Positions 6,044 to 49,409 of a stretch of DNA of 62,773 nucleotides are shown here, piece after piece. The position numbers and the translations under genes were made by a program. The stretch covers positions 1 to 62,773 of the forward strand of contig WQVG01000004.1 of the NCBI GenBank assembly GCA_009781675.1, written 5' to 3'. Every line of letters starts with the position of its first letter. Positions within the stretch are counted from its first letter, which is position 1. The notes under the pieces were generated by a model, which was given only the letters and a program-made list of their open reading frames with translations, was not told where the DNA came from and searched no databases. This stretch comes from Candidatus Bathycorpusculum acetigenes. Its GTDB lineage: Archaea; Thermoproteota; Bathyarchaeia; Bathyarchaeales; Bathycorpusculaceae.

Positions 6044-6168
6044 GCCGGGGTGGCGGAGTGGTTATCGCGCCAGCCTCGAGATCAAACAAACGAGGGCAAG
6101 AGCCAGGAATGGCAAGACAGCTGGTGGGCTTCGTGCTCGCAGGGGTTCGAATCCCTTCCCCGGCGCCA
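6044..6168 (+). tRNA. tRNA-Ser (anticodon CGA) with a 38-nt intron; CCA encoded
   Basis: The acceptor stem pairs GCCGGGG (6044-6050) with CCCCGGC (6158-6164), followed by discriminator G and an encoded CCA (6166-6168). The D stem is GCG/CGC. The anticodon stem is CCAGC (6070-6074) with GCTGG (6120-6124), the anticodon CGA is at 6077-6079, and a class II variable arm (GGGC/GCTC) spans 6126-6138. The T arm has loop TTCGAAT (6146-6152). The anticodon stem closes only after removal of 6081-6118, which places the intron at canonical position 37/38. A bulge-helix-bulge fits: AG|A and AC|A bulges around a four-pair helix (6075-6078 with 6113-6116) that has one C-A mismatch. Confidence 0.93.
6081..6118 (+). 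other. tRNA-Ser intron
   Basis: The 38-nt intervening sequence lies between anticodon-loop positions 37 and 38. It contains a GCCA-GGAA-TGGC hairpin (6102-6113) and CGAGG (6091-6095), which is complementary to CCTCG of the anticodon loop region (6074-6078). It should be removed by the archaeal tRNA splicing endonuclease. Confidence 0.8.
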
Positions 6169-14634: not shown

Positions 14635-15450
14635 TCAGTTTGAGCCATTGTCATTACCATCACCATTGTTCCAGTTCAAGTCAGTCAGCGTAATTTTTTC
14701 GTCAGCACCATAGATCACAAAGTTATCGCTGGGATTGCCACAGATAGGACACCTAGCAGGAAGCACCGTAACCACTTCCCCACAAACCACACAACGATAC
14801 ACCGTACCATACGTCGCATCAACATAACTCACATCCGCAAAATTAACAAACACATCCAAATAATTGCCCGCATGAACCTCCTCTGCTCTCATCGCCAACC
14901 TAAAGATACGCGCCGCATCACTATTCCCTTCTGCCTGCGCCGTAGCCAGAAAACCAGGATACATCACCGTATACTCATATGTCTCACCATCAAAAGCTGC
15001 CAATAGATTCGCTCTCGTATCTCCAACCACAGGCACTGCCGCAGTAGGACGCACCGTAGCACCCATAGTCTGCAGAACTGCCCACTCATCATCCGCATGC
15101 TTAGCCTCCGCATCCGCAGTCGCACCAAACAAACGAGCAATCACCGGATAACCATCAGCCACCGCACGCTCCGCAAACGCCCGATACGCCGCAGCCGCAT
15201 TTGTCTCACCCTGCACCGACGCATAGAGATTATCATAGGTCGCACTATACGTTACATCTCTTTCTGTTTGTTCTGAATCAGCACCGAGCTCATTTCTAGC
15301 TAGATTCAGTTTTTCCTGTACCGATATATAGAGATCAGTAGGGGCCTCATTTCCAACTGTTTGCGCAGGTAAGGGTTTAAAGATCGCCGTCAGCGGTGTA
15401 AGCACCATTGCCAACACCAGTATGATAATTACAATTTTTTTATTTTTCAT
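14635..15450 (-). CDS. Exported rubrerythrin
   Basis: Rubrerythrins are diiron proteins that reduce peroxide. From ATG 15450 the protein has 271 residues: an N-terminal signal or anchor segment (about 6-25, VIIIILVLAMVLTPLTAIF-like), a four-helix ferritin-like domain and a C-terminal rubredoxin-like site (CVVC and CPIC). All diiron ligand motifs are visible: GETNAAAAY, AEAKHADDE, FDGETYEY and AEEVHAGNY. The ATG at 15450 is chosen over the TTG at 15465 because GGAG lies eight bases before it and would otherwise be inside the gene. Cytoplasmic location is normal for the family, so export is unusual. The tail ends in a low-complexity Asn/Gly/Asp stretch. Confidence 0.9.
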   Translation of the reverse strand: MKNKKIVIIILVLAMVLTPLTAIFKPLPAQTVGNEAPTDLYISVQEKLNLARNELGADSEQTERDVTYSATYDNLYASVQGETNAAAAYRAFAERAVADGYPVIARLFGATADAEAKHADDEWAVLQTMGATVRPTAAVPVVGDTRANLLAAFDGETYEYTVMYPGFLATAQAEGNSDAARIFRLAMRAEEVHAGNYLDVFVNFADVSYVDATYGTVYRCVVCGEVVTVLPARCPICGNPSDNFVIYGADEKITLTDLNWNNGDGNDNGSN

Positions 15451-15465
15451 TATTTTTTTCTCCAA

Positions 15466-15910
15466 AAAAATTTTTTAAGGTTATTTTACCATTTATTTTT
15501 TTGTTATTCAAATATTTCAGCCTCTTTTCTATTTGATTTTTCATTTGATACTCGAGAGCGGCTACATGGTTGTTGACGTTTGATCATTTGAGCAACTCAA
15601 ATGTTGTAAATGAAAGTGATTTTTCACGATATGTTTTGATGTAGCCATATAAAGATCACATTTGTTAATGTGAGCCTTTTCAGTCGATTAACATTAAGGT
15701 GACTACGGGATATGCATAGTCCGCTTGCATGGCAGTGTTGCTATCGTCGCCCTCTCAGATAGTTATATAAAAAACCGCATATATTGATTTCGTATATCAC
15801 ATGTAATTTGTCATATGTAGAAATTTTCATATATTATATTTTTAGATACAGCTCTACGGATTAAAAATAATGTAGTTGAAAATAACGTTTTTCTCAAACA
15901 AGGGCGCTAA
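15466..15910. other. 445-base gap with a structured inverted-repeat region
   Basis: No gene is evident. The notable part is the nested inverted repeat at 15560-15646, listed separately. The rest is AT-rich and should contain the promoter for the rubrerythrin gene. Confidence 0.5.
15560..15646. repeat. Nested inverted repeats able to form a cloverleaf-like fold
   Basis: An outer 8-bp stem pairs GGCTACAT (15560-15567) with ATGTAGCC (15639-15646). Inside lies a perfect hairpin, CATTTGAG-CAA-CTCAAATG (15585-15603), and a weaker one, GTGA-TTTT-TCAC, near 15616-15627. The arrangement could be a small structured RNA, a protein-binding site, or a relic of a mobile element. No known RNA family is recognised. 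Confidence 0.45.
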
Positions 15911-36383: not shown

Positions 36384-37979
36384 ATGAGCATACAGGATAA
36401 ACTCCAAAGAGCCATAGAAACAACTATTGCCGCAGGTTACCAGTTAAACAGCGAAGCCTTTGAATTCCTTATCCAGAACGCAGAAACCAGTGACCCCATT
36501 GAAATTATGAATCTGGCATTACAAAAGATTGAGGCCCTAACAGATAAGCCCATGTTTATCGAACGTACTTTTCTTGAAGCAGTTATACAACAAGCCGCCA
36601 CTGTTGTCCAGGAAACAGTCAGGGAACACATGCAAAAAGCCCTGCCAGCTTCAGAGGCAAACTATACTGAATCTACAGTGGAACCACGGTTTAACGGTTT
36701 AGACAGCGATTTCTATCCCTATGCCAAATATATTCCCTCAGAATTCAAAATTCTCGATGATGCCACAGGCAAACTCACTTCCAACGGCACCCTAGGAGAG
36801 TACAAAGAGCTCTTTCAAGATCGCTTTAAACGTTTAGAAAAAATACTAAGACAGCGGATGGATGTTAAAGCCGCTACCCCCCTTGTGGAGGCTCTCAAGT
36901 CACAGCCCCAAACCAAGCTTAAAGTCATCTGCATGCTGACCGAGAAGCGGGACTCAAAAAACAGCACTATTCTCTCAGTAGAGGACTTAAGCGGCAACGC
37001 AACTATTTTAGTTCCACTAAAAGCGCCTGAAGAAGTCAAAAAGAAAGCGCTTATGCTTCTGGCCGATACCATCTTCTGCGCTGCAGTCGTTAAGACCAAA
37101 ACGAACCTCTTGATGGCAGAAGACATTATTTTTCCCGAAGTCGGTAGAAAAATACCCCAGCATGCACAGGAACCTGTTTATGCAGTCTTCACCTCAGATA
37201 TCCATATCGGCAGCACAAAATTCAACAAAGAAGCATTCAAACGGTTCATACTTTGGCTCAGAGGAAAATATGGAACACCTGCAATGCGGGAAATAGCGGG
37301 TAGCGTAAAGTACCTCTTGATTGCTGGTGACATCGTCGATGGTGTTGGCATCTATCCTGGACAACAGGCAGAATTAACTATTCGAGATATACACAAACAG
37401 TATAATTTTGCAACCAAATATTTAGAAAAAATTCCCAGTTATATCGAAATCGTGCTCTCGCCAGGCAACCATGACGCCGCACGCAAATCTCAGCCACAAC
37501 CCGCCATTCCAGAAGACTATCTCTCAGCCATAAAGGACAAACCAAACATTCACTCTGTTGGAAGCCCCTGCTACCTTAGCCTGCACGGTATTGAAGTCCT
37601 GATGTTTCATGGTGTAAGTCTAAATGATATAATTGGAGTTGTACCAGGCATGGATAACGATCACCCCGAAAAATCGATGAAACTATTGGTACAATGCCGC
37701 CATCTAGCACCAGTATATGGCGGAAAAACTATGCTCTCACCTGAGAACCGTGACTACCTCGTCATTGACAAAGTTCCAGACATATTCCACGCAGGCCATA
37801 TCCATGTCAATGGACTTTGCAATTACCGTGGTGTCTTGGTGGTAAATTCGGGCGGCTGGCAGGAACAGACAGAGTATATGGAGAAACTGGGACTAGTTCC
37901 CACGCCAGGAAAAGTACCAGTGATAAACCTGCAAACAAGAGAGATTGCAGTTTTAGATTTCCTAAATCCGTTAGTTTGA
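36384..37979 (+). CDS. polB: DNA polymerase D small subunit DP1 (3'-5' exonuclease)
   Basis: DP1 is the proofreading Mre11-like subunit of the archaeal replicative polymerase PolD. The 531 residues include an N-terminal helical region, an OB fold (about 170-250) and a calcineurin-like phosphoesterase domain with SDIHIGS (271-277), GDIVDG (about 315), GNHDA (361-365) and HAGHIHVNG (about 470). All expected metal ligands are visible. The partner DP2 is encoded at 45987. The gene overlaps the convergent orc1/cdc6 by nine bases. The start is ATG 36384, just after an out-of-frame ATG. Confidence 0.96.
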   Translation: MSIQDKLQRAIETTIAAGYQLNSEAFEFLIQNAETSDPIEIMNLALQKIEALTDKPMFIERTFLEAVIQQAATVVQETVREHMQKALPASEANYTESTVEPRFNGLDSDFYPYAKYIPSEFKILDDATGKLTSNGTLGEYKELFQDRFKRLEKILRQRMDVKAATPLVEALKSQPQTKLKVICMLTEKRDSKNSTILSVEDLSGNATILVPLKAPEEVKKKALMLLADTIFCAAVVKTKTNLLMAEDIIFPEVGRKIPQHAQEPVYAVFTSDIHIGSTKFNKEAFKRFILWLRGKYGTPAMREIAGSVKYLLIAGDIVDGVGIYPGQQAELTIRDIHKQYNFATKYLEKIPSYIEIVLSPGNHDAARKSQPQPAIPEDYLSAIKDKPNIHSVGSPCYLSLHGIEVLMFHGVSLNDIIGVVPGMDNDHPEKSMKLLVQCRHLAPVYGGKTMLSPENRDYLVIDKVPDIFHAGHIHVNGLCNYRGVLVVNSGGWQEQTEYMEKLGLVPTPGKVPVINLQTREIAVLDFLNPLV

Positions 37980-39200
37980 GCTTTTATTGGTGATTTTTGG
38001 GGAATAAGAAAGCAACTGGCTAAAGCGATTGTCACCGCCGAAAACGTCACGGATTAAGCCGCGGCTGATTTCAAGTCGAATTTTTTTTGTTCTGCCATAT
38101 CGGCCCATGCTGACGACTCTGGCGTTCACCAAACCCATGGAATCAAGCTCATTAACAAGGGTGCCAAGTCGTCTCTGTGTCAGAAGTCCTGCGCCCATTT
38201 CACCACATAACTCGTTGTAGACATCATAGATTTCACCTGTGGTTGCGCTGGGTTTGTTTAGGTGATATACACTTAGGAGCACCAACTTTGAGTGTAGTGT
38301 TAGGTTTTTGAGGGCTTCAATAACACGGTTGTGTTCGATATGTTTTTCGGCTTGGCGTACATGCTCTTCGGTTACAGCTTTTGCGCCTTGGCGTTCAGCC
38401 ACTTCGCCTGCAACCCGTAACAGATCTAGTGCACGTCGTGCATCACCGTGTTCGGCGGCGGCTAATGCTGAGGAGATGCTTAGGGCTGAGTCAGAGAGGA
38501 CGCCTTCTTGGAAGGCAAGTTTGGAGCGTTCGAGTAGTATATTACGTAGTTCGCCTGCATCGTAGGGGCGGAAAACCAGTTCTTCTTCACTAAGTGAGCT
38601 AAATACACGGGGGTCAAGGAATTCTTTTAGTCGTAAATCATTAGATATACCGATAATTGAGACTTTACTTTTGTGTAGGGTTTCATTGATGCGGGTGAGT
38701 TCGTACATGAAGGCGTCGCCGCGGTCTTTAATTAGTGAATCTACCTCATCGAGAACTATTATGAAGATTATGCGGGATTGGTCAAGTCCGGAGCGGAAAC
38801 GTTCAAAGACCTCGCCGACAGAGAGTCCTGTGAAGGGGATACTCAGACCTACGCTTTGGCTGAGGCTGGCAAATACGCGGTATTCTGAGCCGGTCATGCG
38901 GCAGTTGATATAGCAGAATTTTACTTGGGCGCCGTATTCTTTAGCTTTTGATTCTAGATGGCTGAGAACGTATTTTGCGACAGCAGTTTTTCCTGTGCCG
39001 GTTTTACCGTAGATAAATATGTTTGAGCATCTGGCGTCTTTTAGTACAGGGGCAACTGTTGAACCTAAGAGACGGATTTGGTCTTCTCTGTGCGGTAATT
39101 TGTCTGGTATGTAGTCATGCCTTAAGACTTCACGATCTTTGAACAGTCGTATGCCGTTAACAAAGTTATCAAATACATCATCTAATACCGAGTTTCCCAT
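37971..39200 (-). CDS. orc1: Replication initiator Orc1/Cdc6
   Basis: This AAA+ initiator binds origin recognition boxes and loads MCM. The 409 residues show Walker A YGKTGTGKTAV (about 64-74), Walker B VLDEVDSL (about 149-156), sensor ISNDLRLKEFLDPRV and a C-terminal winged helix (about 300-395). The start is ATG 39200. The region directly upstream of the gene contains two ORB-like repeats and an AT-rich tract, the usual arrangement of an archaeal origin. The gene end overlaps that of DP1. Confidence 0.96.
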   Translation of the reverse strand: MGNSVLDDVFDNFVNGIRLFKDREVLRHDYIPDKLPHREDQIRLLGSTVAPVLKDARCSNIFIYGKTGTGKTAVAKYVLSHLESKAKEYGAQVKFCYINCRMTGSEYRVFASLSQSVGLSIPFTGLSVGEVFERFRSGLDQSRIIFIIVLDEVDSLIKDRGDAFMYELTRINETLHKSKVSIIGISNDLRLKEFLDPRVFSSLSEEELVFRPYDAGELRNILLERSKLAFQEGVLSDSALSISSALAAAEHGDARRALDLLRVAGEVAERQGAKAVTEEHVRQAEKHIEHNRVIEALKNLTLHSKLVLLSVYHLNKPSATTGEIYDVYNELCGEMGAGLLTQRRLGTLVNELDSMGLVNARVVSMGRYGRTKKIRLEISRGLIRDVFGGDNRFSQLLSYSPKITNKSSN

Positions 39201-39340
39201 GTGGCCCCTTCTTCCTTTTTCTACAGAAGTACAACCGATATTTCGGGTGGAACAGATAAAGGATGCAGTACAAAAAACTGGTTTTAGTACAAAACATTTC
39301 TAAAAGAGGGGGAAATCAGACAGCAGAGAGGAATAACACA

Positions 39341-39363
39341 CACCCCAAAGTTTCTACTGGAAA
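39341..39363 (-). promoter_or_regulatory. Origin recognition box-like repeat 1
   Basis: CACCCC, then AAAGT, then TTCTACTGGAAA. Its reverse complement has the TTCCAG...GAAA core and a GGGGT G-string at the spacing seen in archaeal ORBs. It lies about 140 bases upstream of the orc1 start. Confidence 0.72.
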
Positions 39364-39785
39364 AAGCTTGTCATTAAAGTAATATGGCTATAAATAATAT
39401 ATATAGATCTTTACTCTAAGTTGTAAATCAGAATAATATATATTAATGATTGCTGTCCAAGAAATTAGACAAACTTGCTGTGAATATTTTTTCTGCCTCT
39501 CTAAACTTCTTTTTTGTCTAAAAATCTTCGAGCGGAAACATAGGGGTGCCCCTTTAGCCCTAAATTCATGGGAAATCAGGTTAAAAATACTGCTGATCAA
39601 CTTGGACTGTGTATAGCTTGAACTTTTTTTCAGCAACAAATATGGCTCTAAATCTAGTAGGGCTTCACAGATATTTTTCCGTTCACAAAACTGTGAATAC
39701 ATGTAAAATAGCATTAAATCTGCCGCTTTACGACGCCGCTTTTCCTAAGAATTACCCTATTTCTGTCCTTTTACAGTGAATAAGG

Positions 39786-39808
39786 CACCCCTACACTTCT
39801 ACTGGAAA
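39786..39808 (-). promoter_or_regulatory. Origin recognition box-like repeat 2
   Basis: CACCCC, then TACAC, then TTCTACTGGAAA. It matches repeat 1 at all 18 conserved positions, differing only within the five-base spacer, and has the same orientation 445 bases away. Confidence 0.72.
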
Positions 39809-40000
39809 ACCTAAACCAAGCCATCAAGTTAGTTGTTTCACAATTTTGTTTTTCTGTGAAGCTGGTAATTCCAAAAAACTTACAAAAAATGCTTTATTAA
39901 CAATTATCTTCTTATTTTGATCTTTTTTATATTGCTTGTTTCACCATCACAGTTATAAGGTGTGAAGTAGAGAGTTGTGAACAGCCTATAGGTGTACAGT

Positions 40001-40432
40001 GTGCCTGCTCGTAAAATGCGTGTTGAGCTCTTCGACAGCGATGGGAATCGATATACCATCGCTTTTGAGGGTCAAGTGACCCGCGATAAAGCTCTTCGCC
40101 TTCTAGATTTAGTCGAGTTGCTAGGCGGTGCACCAGGTGAAAATCCCGTTATTAATCATAGTCCAACGATGCCTAATCAGCAGCTATCACGTTTTGAAAA
40201 GGTTCAACATGTTGTCCAGAAGAATTTTCCATTAGTATGGTTCACCTCCAAAGATATTCAAACCATATATGAAACAGAACTCAAAGAACCCGTTAGCCTA
40301 AGCACCATATCTACTTATCTAGCACGCATGGTCGACAAAGGCATGTTGCTTAGAACTGGCAATTCAAACAGCCTAAAATACAAGACAGCACCAAACATTA
40401 CACCAGCAATTAAACAACGCATAATAAAATAG
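40001..40432 (+). CDS. Winged-helix DNA-binding protein beside the origin
   Basis: The 143-residue protein begins with MRVELFDSDGNRYTIAFEGQVTRDKALRLLDLVELLGG, a beta-rich segment. A winged-helix domain follows (about 55-140): ERF-KVQHVVQKNFPLVWFTSKDIQTIYETELKEPVSLSTISTYLARMVDKGMLLRTG. GTG 40001 is chosen because AGGTG precedes it; GTG 39992 is also possible. I do not recognise a named family. The position next to orc1 and the origin, and the phased TTCACA repeats immediately after its stop, suggest a role in origin binding or local regulation. This is inference. Confidence 0.8.
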   Translation: MPARKMRVELFDSDGNRYTIAFEGQVTRDKALRLLDLVELLGGAPGENPVINHSPTMPNQQLSRFEKVQHVVQKNFPLVWFTSKDIQTIYETELKEPVSLSTISTYLARMVDKGMLLRTGNSNSLKYKTAPNITPAIKQRIIK

Positions 40433-40436
40433 GCGC

Positions 40437-40473
40437 TTCACTACTGTTCACAATTACTTCACAATTCTTCACA
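40437..40473 (+). repeat. Four helically phased TTCACA-type iterons
   Basis: TTCACT at 40437 and TTCACA at 40447, 40458 and 40468 are spaced 10, 11 and 10 bases apart, one DNA turn each. They start four bases after the winged-helix gene stop. The same hexamer, in either orientation, is frequent in the orc1-proximal gap. Confidence 0.6.
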
Positions 40474-40676
40474 CAATTCTAAAGTATATTCGGCCTTAGT
40501 CACAATTGGTGTTTGGCTGGTGGGACGTGTATTTCATTAGCGTATGTAGGAGATATTGGTATTTTAAGCATAAATTTTGGATCATTTAACATACGTACGC
40601 CCAATCTAAGAATGCTCACAAATAAGAAGGGCTATTGATACAAAGCAATATAACAGGATCAGGCAGTATATTAACC

Positions 40677-41501
40677 ATGGGTACGATGAGTAAAATTCTG
40701 GCACTAATACTTATCCTCTGTTTGGTGTTGCCAGGTCTAATTATGTTCACAGCTAAACCCATAATCGTACAAGCGGCACATAAACCGGTTGCTCCAGAAT
40801 TTAGCGTAAAACTCGCATCGCATCCCTATGACGTACCGACAACTACGACAACATGGATCGATCCATACACTGGAGAAAAAACTACAACAACAAATCAAGG
40901 TTATCGCGTGGAGAACCGATCGATAGAAATTACAATAAAAAACAGGCCCTTTACACCCTACACTAATGCAGACGGCATTAGACTCAACCCATTCTACAGA
41001 GTCCAAGTCAAGGGTAGTTTTAGCGAAGATTGGAAAGATTTCCAAGTAAAAAATATTCAAACCTTAGCTAATGTAATCAATCAATCAAATTCTGAATACA
41101 CCTTTCTATCTGGTCCCGCAGATTATCCGGATGGGGCCAAGCTGGATTTTAGAGTTCAATTAATACATGGATATTTTTATGATGCGTTAGCGGGGCGTCC
41201 GATAATACCCTTGTATGATATAGCGACCGATGAAGAAAGCGACTGGAGCATTCAAACAATCAGCATAAACACTGAGACAGTTTTCGTCACTACCCCCAGT
41301 CCAACGATAACTACCGCTCTCCCGCAACAAACAGAAACAACCCAAGAAGACACCAACAACAATCAGACACAACCAACAGATAACATAACCACAACGACAC
41401 TCCTGATAGGGGTTATAGCACTCATTATAGGTAGCATTATCGCTTTGTTGGTACTGATTATTGTTGTAGGCCGAAAATTTATTCCTAAATTGCCATCATA
41501 A
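40677..41501 (+). CDS. Exported protein with C-terminal membrane anchor
   Basis: The 274-residue protein starts with a signal peptide (MSKILALILILCLVLPGLIMF, about 4-24) and ends with a transmembrane helix (about 242-266) and a short basic tail. A Thr/Gln-rich linker (about 205-238) precedes the helix, as in archaeal cell-surface proteins. The ectodomain (beta-rich, with ENRSIEITIKNRPFTPY and FYRVQVKGSFSEDW) is not assignable. The frame extends to a TTG at 40635, but the signal peptide is more normal from ATG 40677. Function unknown. Confidence 0.78.
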   Translation: MGTMSKILALILILCLVLPGLIMFTAKPIIVQAAHKPVAPEFSVKLASHPYDVPTTTTTWIDPYTGEKTTTTNQGYRVENRSIEITIKNRPFTPYTNADGIRLNPFYRVQVKGSFSEDWKDFQVKNIQTLANVINQSNSEYTFLSGPADYPDGAKLDFRVQLIHGYFYDALAGRPIIPLYDIATDEESDWSIQTISINTETVFVTTPSPTITTALPQQTETTQEDTNNNQTQPTDNITTTTLLIGVIALIIGSIIALLVLIIVVGRKFIPKLPS

Positions 41502-45986: not shown

Positions 45987-48900
45987 TTGAACATAAGTAA
46001 AGGTTACCAAACATACATCCAAAACATGGAAGACGAACTCAAACGTCTCTACACCATAAGCGATAGCGCCCGATCTCTGGGATTAGATCCTGCACTTAAA
46101 ACTGAATGCATTATAGCACAAGATATCGCGGATTTAGTTGAGGGTTTGGTTGGACCTAAAGGCGTCGCTATTAGTATTCGTGAACTCAGCAAGACTATGC
46201 CCCGAGAAGAAATCGCTTTCTATGCCGCTAAAGAAATCGCACAAGGTAAATTCGCCCTAACCGACGAGGAAAGGGCCCCTGAGAAACTTGCAGAGCAAGC
46301 CATCCGTACAGCATTGGCGATTTTTACTGAAGGCTTAACCGCTGCACCAATTCAAGGTATCGCACAGGTGAAGATTAAAAAGAACACCGACCAAACCCGC
46401 TATCTAGGTATCTACTTTGCCGGTCCTATCCGATCAGCCGGAGGCACCGATCAAGCTTTAACCCTTGTCGTTGGCGACTATGTAAGACAAGAACTGGGTT
46501 TAGATGTTTACAAACCAACCGAAGAAGAAATCTCTCGGTTCATAGAAGAACTCCGACTCTACGAACGCTCAGTCGGTCGTTTCCAATATCACATCCCAGA
46601 CGAGGAACTTCGCAAAGCGCTCAATCTTGTTCCCGTTGAATGTACAGGTACCGAATCAGACCCCGTCGAAGTCTCCTCCTACCGCAACCTAGAACGAGTA
46701 GAAACCAATCGTGTCCGAGGAGGCGCCCTTCGAGTCATAAACGACGGTATCGTCGGTCGCGCATTAAAAGTCTATGTCATCATCGACAAACTCGGATTCT
46801 CAGGCTGGGAATGGCTCAAAAATTTCAAGAAAAAATCTGAGAAGAAATCTGGCGGTTTTATGGACGACGTGATTGCAGGTCGTCCCATCTTTGCATTCCC
46901 CTCAACACGCGGCGGCTTTAGACTCCGATATGGACGATCAAGAAACACGGGTCTTTCCGCTGTAGGCATCCATCCCGCAACCATGCTCGTTGTGGAAAGC
47001 TTTCTAGCAGCTGGTACCCAGATGCGTCTGGAACTTCCTGGCAAAGGCGGCGTTACTCTGCCCGTAGACAGTCTCGAAAAACCCGTGGTATTACTTAAAG
47101 ATAACTCGGTAGTTAAGGTGTCGCTGGAAAACTATGAATCCACCGTTAAGGGTAAAATCCAAAAAATTCTCTTTTTAGGTGATATGCTCATCGATTTTGG
47201 GGACTTCCTCTACAGCAACAAGGCGCTTCCACCCTCGGGATACGTGGAAGAATGGTGGATAAAAGATCTCCAAAACGCCCTTACAAAATATGCCGGCGAC
47301 TACACTAAAGCCGCCAAAGACTGCCAAGTCCCCGCCAGCCGTCTCGAAGAATTCATATGTGACCCCTTCAAAAACACGCCCACAACCAAAGAAGCCACCG
47401 CCCTCAGCCAAAACTTAGGCATCCCCCTCTCACCCAGTGCAACTTTCTTCTGGACAAGCCTCTCTACACCCCAAGAAGTAGAACCATTGCGCCAATGGCT
47501 CCTAACCTGCAAAGTTACCCTAACAGACGGCGCAGCCACAAAAATTATCGGTATAGCCAGTGACGAGGCTATTAAGACCCTCCGCAAAATTTTCGCCCCC
47601 CATAAAATCATCGACGACCAAATCATTATGACCGGCGAAGATGCCGCCGCAATGGCGTTTACTCTCGGCTATGGGACTCCTCGATTAACTGAACCCCTAC
47701 AAGCAACCACAGTACTGGAACTACTAAGTGTGCTGTGTGGAGTTCAAGTTAAAGATAAAGCACCAACCTACGTGGGTGGTCGTATGGGCCGACCTGAGAA
47801 AGCAAAACACCGTGAAATGCGTCCCATGGTACATGTACTTTTCCCCGTAGGTTTAGCAGGCGGATCCCACAGAGACTTCTGTGAAGCCGCCAAAAAAAGT
47901 CCCGTTTTTGTCGAGATCGCCAAACGCAAATGTCCCACTTGTAAAACCTACACCATAAAAATAAAATGCGATATCTGCGAAACCTCAACGATTCCAGAAA
48001 AAGTTTGCCCTCGTTGCAGTCGTTCCCTCAAAGACAATTACTGTGGCACCTGCAGGGCAGATGCGGTGCTCTACCAACGTCAACCTCTTAACTTTAAAGA
48101 ACTGCTATCAACTGCAAGTCGTAACCTTGGATGCACAACCCCTAAAATGTTGCGGGGTGTGAAGGGCTTAACCAATGCCGACAAGATGCCTGAAATCATT
48201 GAGAAAGGTATTCTGCGTGCAAAGCATGGCGTATCCACATATAAGGATGGTACAATACGCTTCGATGGCACCAATGCACCTCTCACCCATATCACACCTG
48301 CCGAAATCGGCGTTTCTATTGAAAAGATGCACCAAATGGGTTACCATGCCGACACCCACGGCTTACCCCTAACAAACCCCAACCAAGTCTGCGAACTAAA
48401 AATCCAAGACGTCGTTATTCCCTGGAGCGCCGGAAAATACTTGGTGCAGACCGCCAGCTTTATTGACGAACTCCTCATCCGCATCTACAAACTCCCCGCC
48501 TACTACAACGTCACAAAACCCGAAGACATGGTTGGGCACCTCATCTTTGGCTTAGCTCCTCACACATGTGCTTGTATCCTGGGCAGAGTCGTCGGCTACA
48601 CAACCCGCAACTTAATATATGCTCACCCTGTCTGGCACTCCGCCAAGCGCCGAGACTGCGACGGCGACGAAGACGCCATCATGCTAGCCCTTGATACTCT
48701 GCTTAATTTTTCTCGTAACTTCTTGCCCGCACAAATAGGGGGTATCATGGACGCCCCTATTCTACTCATCCCCTTTGTAAACACAAAAGAGGTGCAACGA
48801 CAAGCCCATGACTTCGATGTCAGCATAACCTATCCAATAGAATTCTACAAGCAAACCCTACTCAAAGGTGAAGCCCGCTTAGTCAGCTCGTTTATGGACG

Positions 48901-49409
48901 TCATCAGCCACCGACTGGGCACCGAGGGCCAGTTTGAAGGTTTCCAATTCACTATCCCCTGTACCGACATCAACCTTGGCAACGCCAACAGCAGCTACAA
49001 AGAATTCAAATCCATGACTGACAAACTCAACATGCAACTGGGGCTGGGCGAAAAAATAGACGCTGTTGACGCCAAACGGGTTGCCCTAAAAGTTCTCAAC
49101 ACACATCTGATGCGTGACATCGCCGGTAATATGCGCGCGTTTTCCACTCAGGGGTTCCGCTGTAAATCCTGCAACGCAAAATACCGCCGTTTACCCCTTA
49201 GCGGTAAGTGCACCCGATGCAGTGGAGCCCTTACCCTTACAGTCTATCGTGGCAACATCGAAAAATACCTCAAAGCCGCCCAACAGCTCGTTGACAAATA
49301 CGGGTTGCCCAACTATTATACCCAACGCATGAACCTTATCAAAGAGGAAATTACTTTGATGTTTGATAACAAAAAACCCAAACAGGCTACGCTCTTTGAC
49401 TTCAAATAG
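45987..49409 (+). CDS. polC: DNA polymerase D large subunit DP2
   Basis: DP2 is the catalytic subunit of PolD. The 1140-residue protein contains YFAGPIRSAGGTDQAL (about 135-150), a zinc-binding region (CPTCKTYTIKIKCDIC, CPRCSRSLKDNYCGTC, about 650-690), and the catalytic HPVWHSAKRRDCDGDEDAIML segment (about 878-898), with no intein at that often-invaded site. A second zinc motif lies near the C-terminus (CKSCNAKY...CTRC). The last residues, QATLFDF, form a PCNA-interacting PIP box. The start is TTG 45987. Its partner DP1 is encoded 8 kb away. Confidence 0.97.
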   Translation: MNISKGYQTYIQNMEDELKRLYTISDSARSLGLDPALKTECIIAQDIADLVEGLVGPKGVAISIRELSKTMPREEIAFYAAKEIAQGKFALTDEERAPEKLAEQAIRTALAIFTEGLTAAPIQGIAQVKIKKNTDQTRYLGIYFAGPIRSAGGTDQALTLVVGDYVRQELGLDVYKPTEEEISRFIEELRLYERSVGRFQYHIPDEELRKALNLVPVECTGTESDPVEVSSYRNLERVETNRVRGGALRVINDGIVGRALKVYVIIDKLGFSGWEWLKNFKKKSEKKSGGFMDDVIAGRPIFAFPSTRGGFRLRYGRSRNTGLSAVGIHPATMLVVESFLAAGTQMRLELPGKGGVTLPVDSLEKPVVLLKDNSVVKVSLENYESTVKGKIQKILFLGDMLIDFGDFLYSNKALPPSGYVEEWWIKDLQNALTKYAGDYTKAAKDCQVPASRLEEFICDPFKNTPTTKEATALSQNLGIPLSPSATFFWTSLSTPQEVEPLRQWLLTCKVTLTDGAATKIIGIASDEAIKTLRKIFAPHKIIDDQIIMTGEDAAAMAFTLGYGTPRLTEPLQATTVLELLSVLCGVQVKDKAPTYVGGRMGRPEKAKHREMRPMVHVLFPVGLAGGSHRDFCEAAKKSPVFVEIAKRKCPTCKTYTIKIKCDICETSTIPEKVCPRCSRSLKDNYCGTCRADAVLYQRQPLNFKELLSTASRNLGCTTPKMLRGVKGLTNADKMPEIIEKGILRAKHGVSTYKDGTIRFDGTNAPLTHITPAEIGVSIEKMHQMGYHADTHGLPLTNPNQVCELKIQDVVIPWSAGKYLVQTASFIDELLIRIYKLPAYYNVTKPEDMVGHLIFGLAPHTCACILGRVVGYTTRNLIYAHPVWHSAKRRDCDGDEDAIMLALDTLLNFSRNFLPAQIGGIMDAPILLIPFVNTKEVQRQAHDFDVSITYPIEFYKQTLLKGEARLVSSFMDVISHRLGTEGQFEGFQFTIPCTDINLGNANSSYKEFKSMTDKLNMQLGLGEKIDAVDAKRVALKVLNTHLMRDIAGNMRAFSTQGFRCKSCNAKYRRLPLSGKCTRCSGALTLTVYRGNIEKYLKAAQQLVDKYGLPNYYTQRMNLIKEEITLMFDNKKPKQATLFDFK

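Follow-up and report, generated by a model that had tools for sequence, protein, structure and literature searches.

In Sulfolobus, the initiator Orc1-1 attaches to ORBs in a polar manner and brings MCM to an AT-rich tract, as set out in a 2025 study (PMC12141716). The same study describes UBP, a saddle-shaped protein of 111 aa whose beta hairpins contact the DNA. It presents ubp as a recent acquisition confined to Desulfurococcales and Sulfolobales, and it ends on the question of whether comparable proteins act at the origins of further archaea. A common ORB motif is TCCA[CG]T[TG]GAAA[TC][GA]AAGGGGT, and the ORBs of Sulfolobaceae carry a GGGGT string (PMC4164010). Sulfolobus oriC3 has a Cdt1-like initiator to itself, the winged-helix protein WhiP (PMC4010727, PMC5333045). 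In Euryarchaeota, the neighbourhood of cdc6 and DP1 at origins is already known (PMC2643942). A single origin was mapped in Nitrosopumilus maritimus (Pelve et al. 2013, as cited in PMC4010727 and PMC5333045). We found no earlier description of a Bathyarchaeia origin in the open-access literature searched.

We analysed a stretch of 62,773 nucleotides (the window), contig C4 of a 2.14-Mb draft genome in 140 contigs from an uncultured Bathyarchaeia archaeon. The candidate origin in it resembles oriC1 of Sulfolobus/Saccharolobus (PMC12141716): Orc1, inverted ORBs flanking an AT-rich duplex-unwinding element, and orc1-1 drawn at the same locus. Both systems also have an additional conserved motif beside the ORBs and a small DNA-binding protein, dedicated in Sulfolobus and a candidate here. 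However, the window holds many copies of a hexamer, TTMACA, where Sulfolobus has one 11-bp ucm within the unwinding element, and its protein, the predicted winged-helix ORF146 with its gene beside the ORBs, differs in kind from UBP. ORF146/TTMACA is perhaps the counterpart of the ucm/UBP pair. WhiP, too, is a winged-helix protein tied to an origin; it differs as a Cdt1-like initiator of an origin of its own. As at the oriC of Pyrococcus and other euryarchaea, cdc6 adjoins the origin and both DP1 and DP2 are close; the number and order of the ORBs differ, and ORF146/TTMACA is undescribed there (PMC2643942). As an origin, the locus belongs to a known type; what is new is TTMACA with ORF146. This claim of novelty is limited to the open-access literature searched, in which the module was not found.

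The ORBs and the AT-rich tract beside orc1

The gene adjoining the boxes encodes a protein with the sequence marks of Orc1/Cdc6: Walker A (GKTGTGKT), Walker B (IIVLDEVD), the Cdc6 lid and a C-terminal winged helix. It matched Pfam PF09079 and PF22703, scored 425 bits with TIGR02928 (cut-off 181), and had 2qby_A (Cdc6 homolog 1) and 2v1u_A as top PDB matches. The positions of the features are listed in Table 1.

A first-pass annotation had proposed an origin from two 23-bp boxes, CACCCC-N5-TTCTACTGGAAA, with the start of orc1/cdc6 140 bases from the first. Both boxes are exact and on the same strand (39341-39363 and 39786-39808), and the distance to the start codon on the minus strand is correct. 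A search allowing up to 3 mismatches returned 2 matches in the window where 0.06 were expected, and 0 of 100 shuffles gave 2. The 2.14-Mb draft genome, searched in full, contained no third exact copy of the ORB-form pattern. Along the coding strand of orc1, both boxes have the sequence TTTCCAGTAGAA-N5-GGGGTG, which bears out the ORB form that had been claimed for them. The count of two was incomplete, however: an inverted third box (ORB B) and a weak fourth site (site D) had been overlooked. In a matrix scan of the window, only ORBs A, B and C exceeded 9 bits; they are spaced by 160-240 bp, a further difference from Sulfolobus oriC1. Site D retains GTTCCA-GAAATAACGG in relatives and is a candidate autoregulatory site for orc1.

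The very AT-rich tract that had been placed between the two boxes is real (75% A+T compared with 57% for the window), but most of it falls in the interval from the first box to the inverted ORB B. Few places in the window are as AT-rich as positions 39351-39450 (79%). One at 15.4 kb is richer: 15406-15550 is the most AT-rich stretch, with up to 86% per 100 bp. Within the tract, a AGAGTATAT block (AGAGTAAAGA in the window's own version; ~39409-39418, at about -226 from orc1) is near-invariant in the family of the window and rarer elsewhere. We rejected AGAGTATA, also in the tract, as a ucm-type motif, as it is largely confined to the window's own family.

The locus thus combines the features of an oriC1-type origin, namely several ORBs in both orientations with a TCCA-GAAA core and a GGGGT string (A, B and C), an AT-rich unwinding tract flanked by ORBs, and an initiator gene, orc1/cdc6, adjoining the boxes. 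Judged by their sequence, the boxes belong as ORBs to an archaeal origin of the Orc1 type. Elsewhere in the window, a tRNA of 122 bases (6044-6165, plus strand) was matched by Rfam and not by ARAGORN; given this length and the Rfam-only match, it probably contains an intron.

Table 1. Features of the candidate origin region (window coordinates)
Feature	Position	Strand	Remarks
DP1, DNA polymerase D small subunit	36384..37979	+	convergent with orc1
orc1/cdc6 initiator gene	37971..39200	-	409 aa; start codon at 39200
Weak ORB-like site D	39230..39253	-	GTTCCACCCGAAATATCGGTTGTA; close upstream of orc1 start; without full G-string
ORB C (first box of the first-pass annotation)	39340..39363	-	TTTCCAGTAGAAACTTTGGGGTGT; PWM 36.8 bits
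Candidate duplex-unwinding element	39364..39525		75% A+T; between ORB C and inverted ORB B
Lone TGTGAA in AT-rich tract	39479..39484		position not conserved
ORB B, inverted	39526..39549	+	CTTCGAGCGGAAACATAGGGGTGC; PWM 25.2; degenerate core, G-string intact; also inverted in relatives
TTCACA-N4-TGTGAA inverted pair	39682..39697		commonest inverted TTMACA geometry in the order
ORB A (second box of the first-pass annotation)	39785..39808	-	TTTCCAGTAGAAGTGTAGGGGTGC; PWM 36.7
TTCACA ... TGTGAA pair	39837..39860		
Two TGTGAA copies, 15 bp apart	39961..39981		beside TATA-like TTATAA preceding ORF146
ORF146, predicted beta-hairpin-helix + winged helix	40001..40432	+	divergent from orc1 across the origin
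Codon for ORF146 Thr102	40304..40306	+	recognition-helix residue covarying with third base of TTMACA
DP2, DNA polymerase D large subunit	45987..49409	+	6 kb past the origin

Conservation and strand asymmetry in relatives

The first-pass annotation had named two observations that would speak against an origin: absence of the box upstream of orc1 in close relatives, and skew and marker-frequency extrema elsewhere. The boxes are kept, both in essentially every locus read from the same genus and in other families of the order. The ORB order +,-,+ upstream of orc1 is found in nearly all loci of the genus and family, with the layout conserved in ~36 of them, and all 16 loci read at a greater distance have it as well, including the inverted middle box. 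The mean frequency of the majority base was ~0.8 in the boxes compared with ~0.4-0.5 in the spacers, whose sequence had drifted. When 1.6 Mb sampled from three genomes was scanned with a matrix derived from these ORBs (at least 17 bits), 9 matches fell in the three origins and 1 elsewhere. Origins of the ammonia-oxidising family f25 (L138, L139, L275-L288) differ from that of the window in having two direct ORBs, GCCTGGARTGGAAATAAAGGGGT, a clade-specific variant.

A second Orc1/Cdc6 paralog (G000:C2:21801-22907, L074; 32% identity) is widespread in the class. The matrix scan at 17 bits or more revealed no ORBs near it, and because of their absence we rejected a second origin at this locus. The paralog is perhaps a non-initiator.

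The genome of the window being in 140 contigs, strand asymmetry was tested in relatives. Skew was sampled in 20-kb stretches of relatives with long contigs. In the sampled closed genomes, the asymmetry switched within ~10 kb of orc1, a location that is good to ~67-107 kb and not base-exact because of the sampling steps (67-107 kb). In the closed genome G165 (same family; orc1 at 2273 kb), the leading-strand coding share was maximal (0.637) with the origin at 2280 kb, and the leading-minus-lagging AT skew at 4-fold sites was extreme at 2270 kb. In G072, a closed genome from another family with orc1 at 1748 kb, the 4-fold AT-skew extreme was at 1740 kb. In each of the two genomes, 0 of 2000 random strand flips gave an AT skew as extreme as this. 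GC skew and gene bias were weaker in G072, where neither alone singles out orc1. On contigs of two members of the same genus (G006 and G015), GC skew passed from positive to negative at orc1. The extrema in the two closed relatives are therefore at orc1. GC skew within the window also peaks near orc1, but we gave this no weight because gene orientation can drive it at that scale.

The boxes conserved upstream of orc1 in relatives, together with the skew switch, support the proposal of a replication origin. From these sequence data, region 39201-40000 is almost certainly the chromosomal origin of this archaeon.

TTMACA hexamers and the winged-helix gene ORF146

We tallied every hexamer across 55 origins, with no motif assumed beforehand. 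TTCACA occurred 254 times compared with 12.8 expected and was found in 54 of the 55 origins; the other enriched words were pieces of ORBs. One orientation was four times as frequent as the other. The density was 7 per 600 bp in origins against a background of 0.43 per kb, and no sampled 20-kb stretch had more than 4 per 600 bp outside origins. In the window, 11 of the 39 copies of TTCACA/TGTGAA are clustered within ~1 kb (39479-40473), which the first-pass annotation had missed. Adjacent copies are often 9-11 bp apart, about one helical turn, in direct or inverted arrangement. In this region of ammonia oxidisers, in which AmoA was found, TTAACA largely takes the place of TTCACA. TTMACA accordingly denotes TTCACA in most Bathyarchaeia and TTAACA in ammonia-oxidising archaea.

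Across the origin from orc1 lies ORF146, which starts at a conserved MPARK at 40001; a longer reading from a GTG at 39992 is possible. Its predicted structure contains a winged helix at pLDDT ~90. The nearest folds (Foldseek) are repressors of the MecI/BlaI/RosR type, a weak match with a best E-value of 0.0066. No Pfam family exceeded its cut-off for ORF146, the MecI/BlaI/CopY family PF03965 reaching 20.2 bits (cut-off 22.6), and a PDB sequence search yielded nothing significant. ORF146 is unlike MecI/BlaI/CopY repressors in its additional N-terminal beta-hairpin-helix, its single copy, its linkage to the origin and its score below the PF03965 cut-off. The CopR-CopY operator, TACANNTGTA, shares ACA/TGT half-sites with TTMACA (PMC7253601).

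Of 299 genomes sampled throughout the phylum, 190 had a homolog of ORF146, with one per genome among the matches listed. Within the window's own taxonomic order, loci on sufficiently long contigs show the arrangement ORF146-origin-orc1-DP1. It also occurs in families outside that order and in the ammonia oxidisers, the AmoA-bearing group of N. maritimus. TTMACA hexamers were absent from the origins of two lineages that have ORBs and no detected ORF146 (G104 and G195), and this contrast comprises these two genomes only. We set aside the other genomes apparently lacking ORF146; the locus is probably missing from those assemblies because only distant orc paralogs were seen or the orc1 contig ends close upstream.

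Residue 102 of ORF146, picked by eye, sits near the beginning of the predicted recognition helix (SLSTISTYL) and covaries with the third base of the hexamer. At 85 loci with Thr102, TTCACA was observed 489 times (53.9 expected) and TTAACA 123 times (110 expected). With Ile or Val at this position (18 loci), the observed and expected numbers were 174 and 16.6 for TTAACA, and 13 and 8.2 for TTCACA. Ile (TTAACA 96/9.3; TTCACA 6/4.3) and Val (78/7.3; 7/3.9) are each included in these sums. Loci with Ala at 102 gave 66/11.2 for TTAACA and 33/5.1 for TTCACA; Ala is the residue of family f9, which belongs to the window's own order and has both hexamers. Within the recognition helix, 102 is the sole position where f9 is near-fixed for a residue differing from the rest of the order. 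Outside the helix, 10 further columns set f9 apart. One of these is wing position 120, which runs parallel to 102: it is Gly in most of the order, Lys in f9 and Arg or Lys in ammonia oxidisers. The residue and hexamer switch of the ammonia oxidisers is probably one event. L116 (Ala102, TTCACA) fits the rule poorly, and L083 (Met) and L332 (Thr within f9) are uninformative. The covariation argues well, though not conclusively, for recognition of TTMACA by ORF146, and we consider it likely that ORF146 binds the hexamers at the origin.

Alternative readings and a possible mechanism

We give a probability of about 75% to the combined reading, an Orc1/ORB origin at which ORF146 would act on TTMACA. 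A plain Orc1/ORB origin, with TTMACA serving as operators of ORF146 as a neighbouring transcription factor without a role in replication, appears unlikely. The likeness of ORF146 to MecI/BlaI/RosR winged-helix repressors and the copies at its TATA-like element would agree with such operators. However, the copies are spread among the ORBs across the whole origin, beyond the ORF146 promoter. Moreover, where ORF146 lies 15-41 kb from orc1, the hexamers have not followed it but are retained among the ORBs; in three such families (f29, f33 and f42) ORF146 is at least 15 kb away, and its own upstream region has no hexamer cluster. A reading of TTCACA as autoregulation only is weakened by these families, because the hexamers remain with the ORBs when ORF146 has relocated.

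It is still less probable that TTMACA and ORF146 form a partition (centromere-like) system that is sited at the origin and takes no part in initiation. Half-sites repeated at one helical turn are consistent with this, and the weak fold matches include AspA, the centromere-binding winged-helix protein of pNOB8 (4rs8, 5k5q). The AspA match is unspecific, though, and the sites are interleaved with ORBs.

We regard it as very improbable that the boxes are operators for Orc1 acting as regulator of orc1 and ORF146, with replication starting elsewhere. One weak box does overlap the orc1 promoter region, and some archaeal Orc paralogs regulate rather than initiate (Orc1-2, PMC9738581). Against this, strand asymmetry switches at the locus in relatives, three ORBs surround an AT-rich tract with no other ORB cluster in the 1.6 Mb sampled, and the orthologous region adjoins orc1 and DP1 in the ammonia oxidisers, the group whose single mapped origin (N. 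maritimus) is noted above. That the boxes are a functionless chance likeness of two short repeats near orc1 has negligible probability: two copies are few, but 0.06 were expected in the window, and conservation of the boxes across families with drifted spacers already refutes it.

Under the combined reading, in which Orc1 and ORF146 share the origin, we infer the following course. Orc1 from the adjoining gene would occupy ORBs A and C and the inverted ORB B in a fixed polarity, deform the intervening AT-rich tract until it melts, and load the helicase MCM. At weak site D near the orc1 start, Orc1 may damp its own expression. ORF146, probably as a dimer, would bind phased TTMACA hexamers between and outside the ORBs and, with Orc1, would shape or regulate the origin complex, either helping to build it or restraining it. 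It would probably also control its own promoter. For a role of ORF146 in initiation, we put the odds at about even.

In Thermoproteota, TTMACA together with ORF146 suggests that origins have a second component and that this component is widely conserved. A wider proposal, on which our judgement is evenly divided, is that they constitute an ancient second origin module common to Bathyarchaeia, ammonia oxidisers and several other Thermoproteota lineages. ORF146 on ORB-interleaved TTMACA would be required for initiation or control it, with TTCACA/TTAACA specificity residing mainly in one recognition-helix residue, and the module would be the non-Sulfolobus counterpart of ucm/UBP. ORF146 is thus a candidate answer to the question raised by the 2025 study (PMC12141716), one for which both the binding site and the effect of a single residue on specificity can be predicted. 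Cultivable ammonia-oxidising archaea carry ORF146/TTMACA.

Two further observations concern the distribution of repeated words near ORF146. Directly downstream of the gene in the window, before an ORF at 40635-41501, three more TTCACA copies lie 10-11 bp apart (40447-40473). In L293 (G103, f12), from a lineage in which TTMACA is sparse, the interval between orc1 and ORF146 contains repeated TTCCCGGTAGC / GCTACCGGGAA words.
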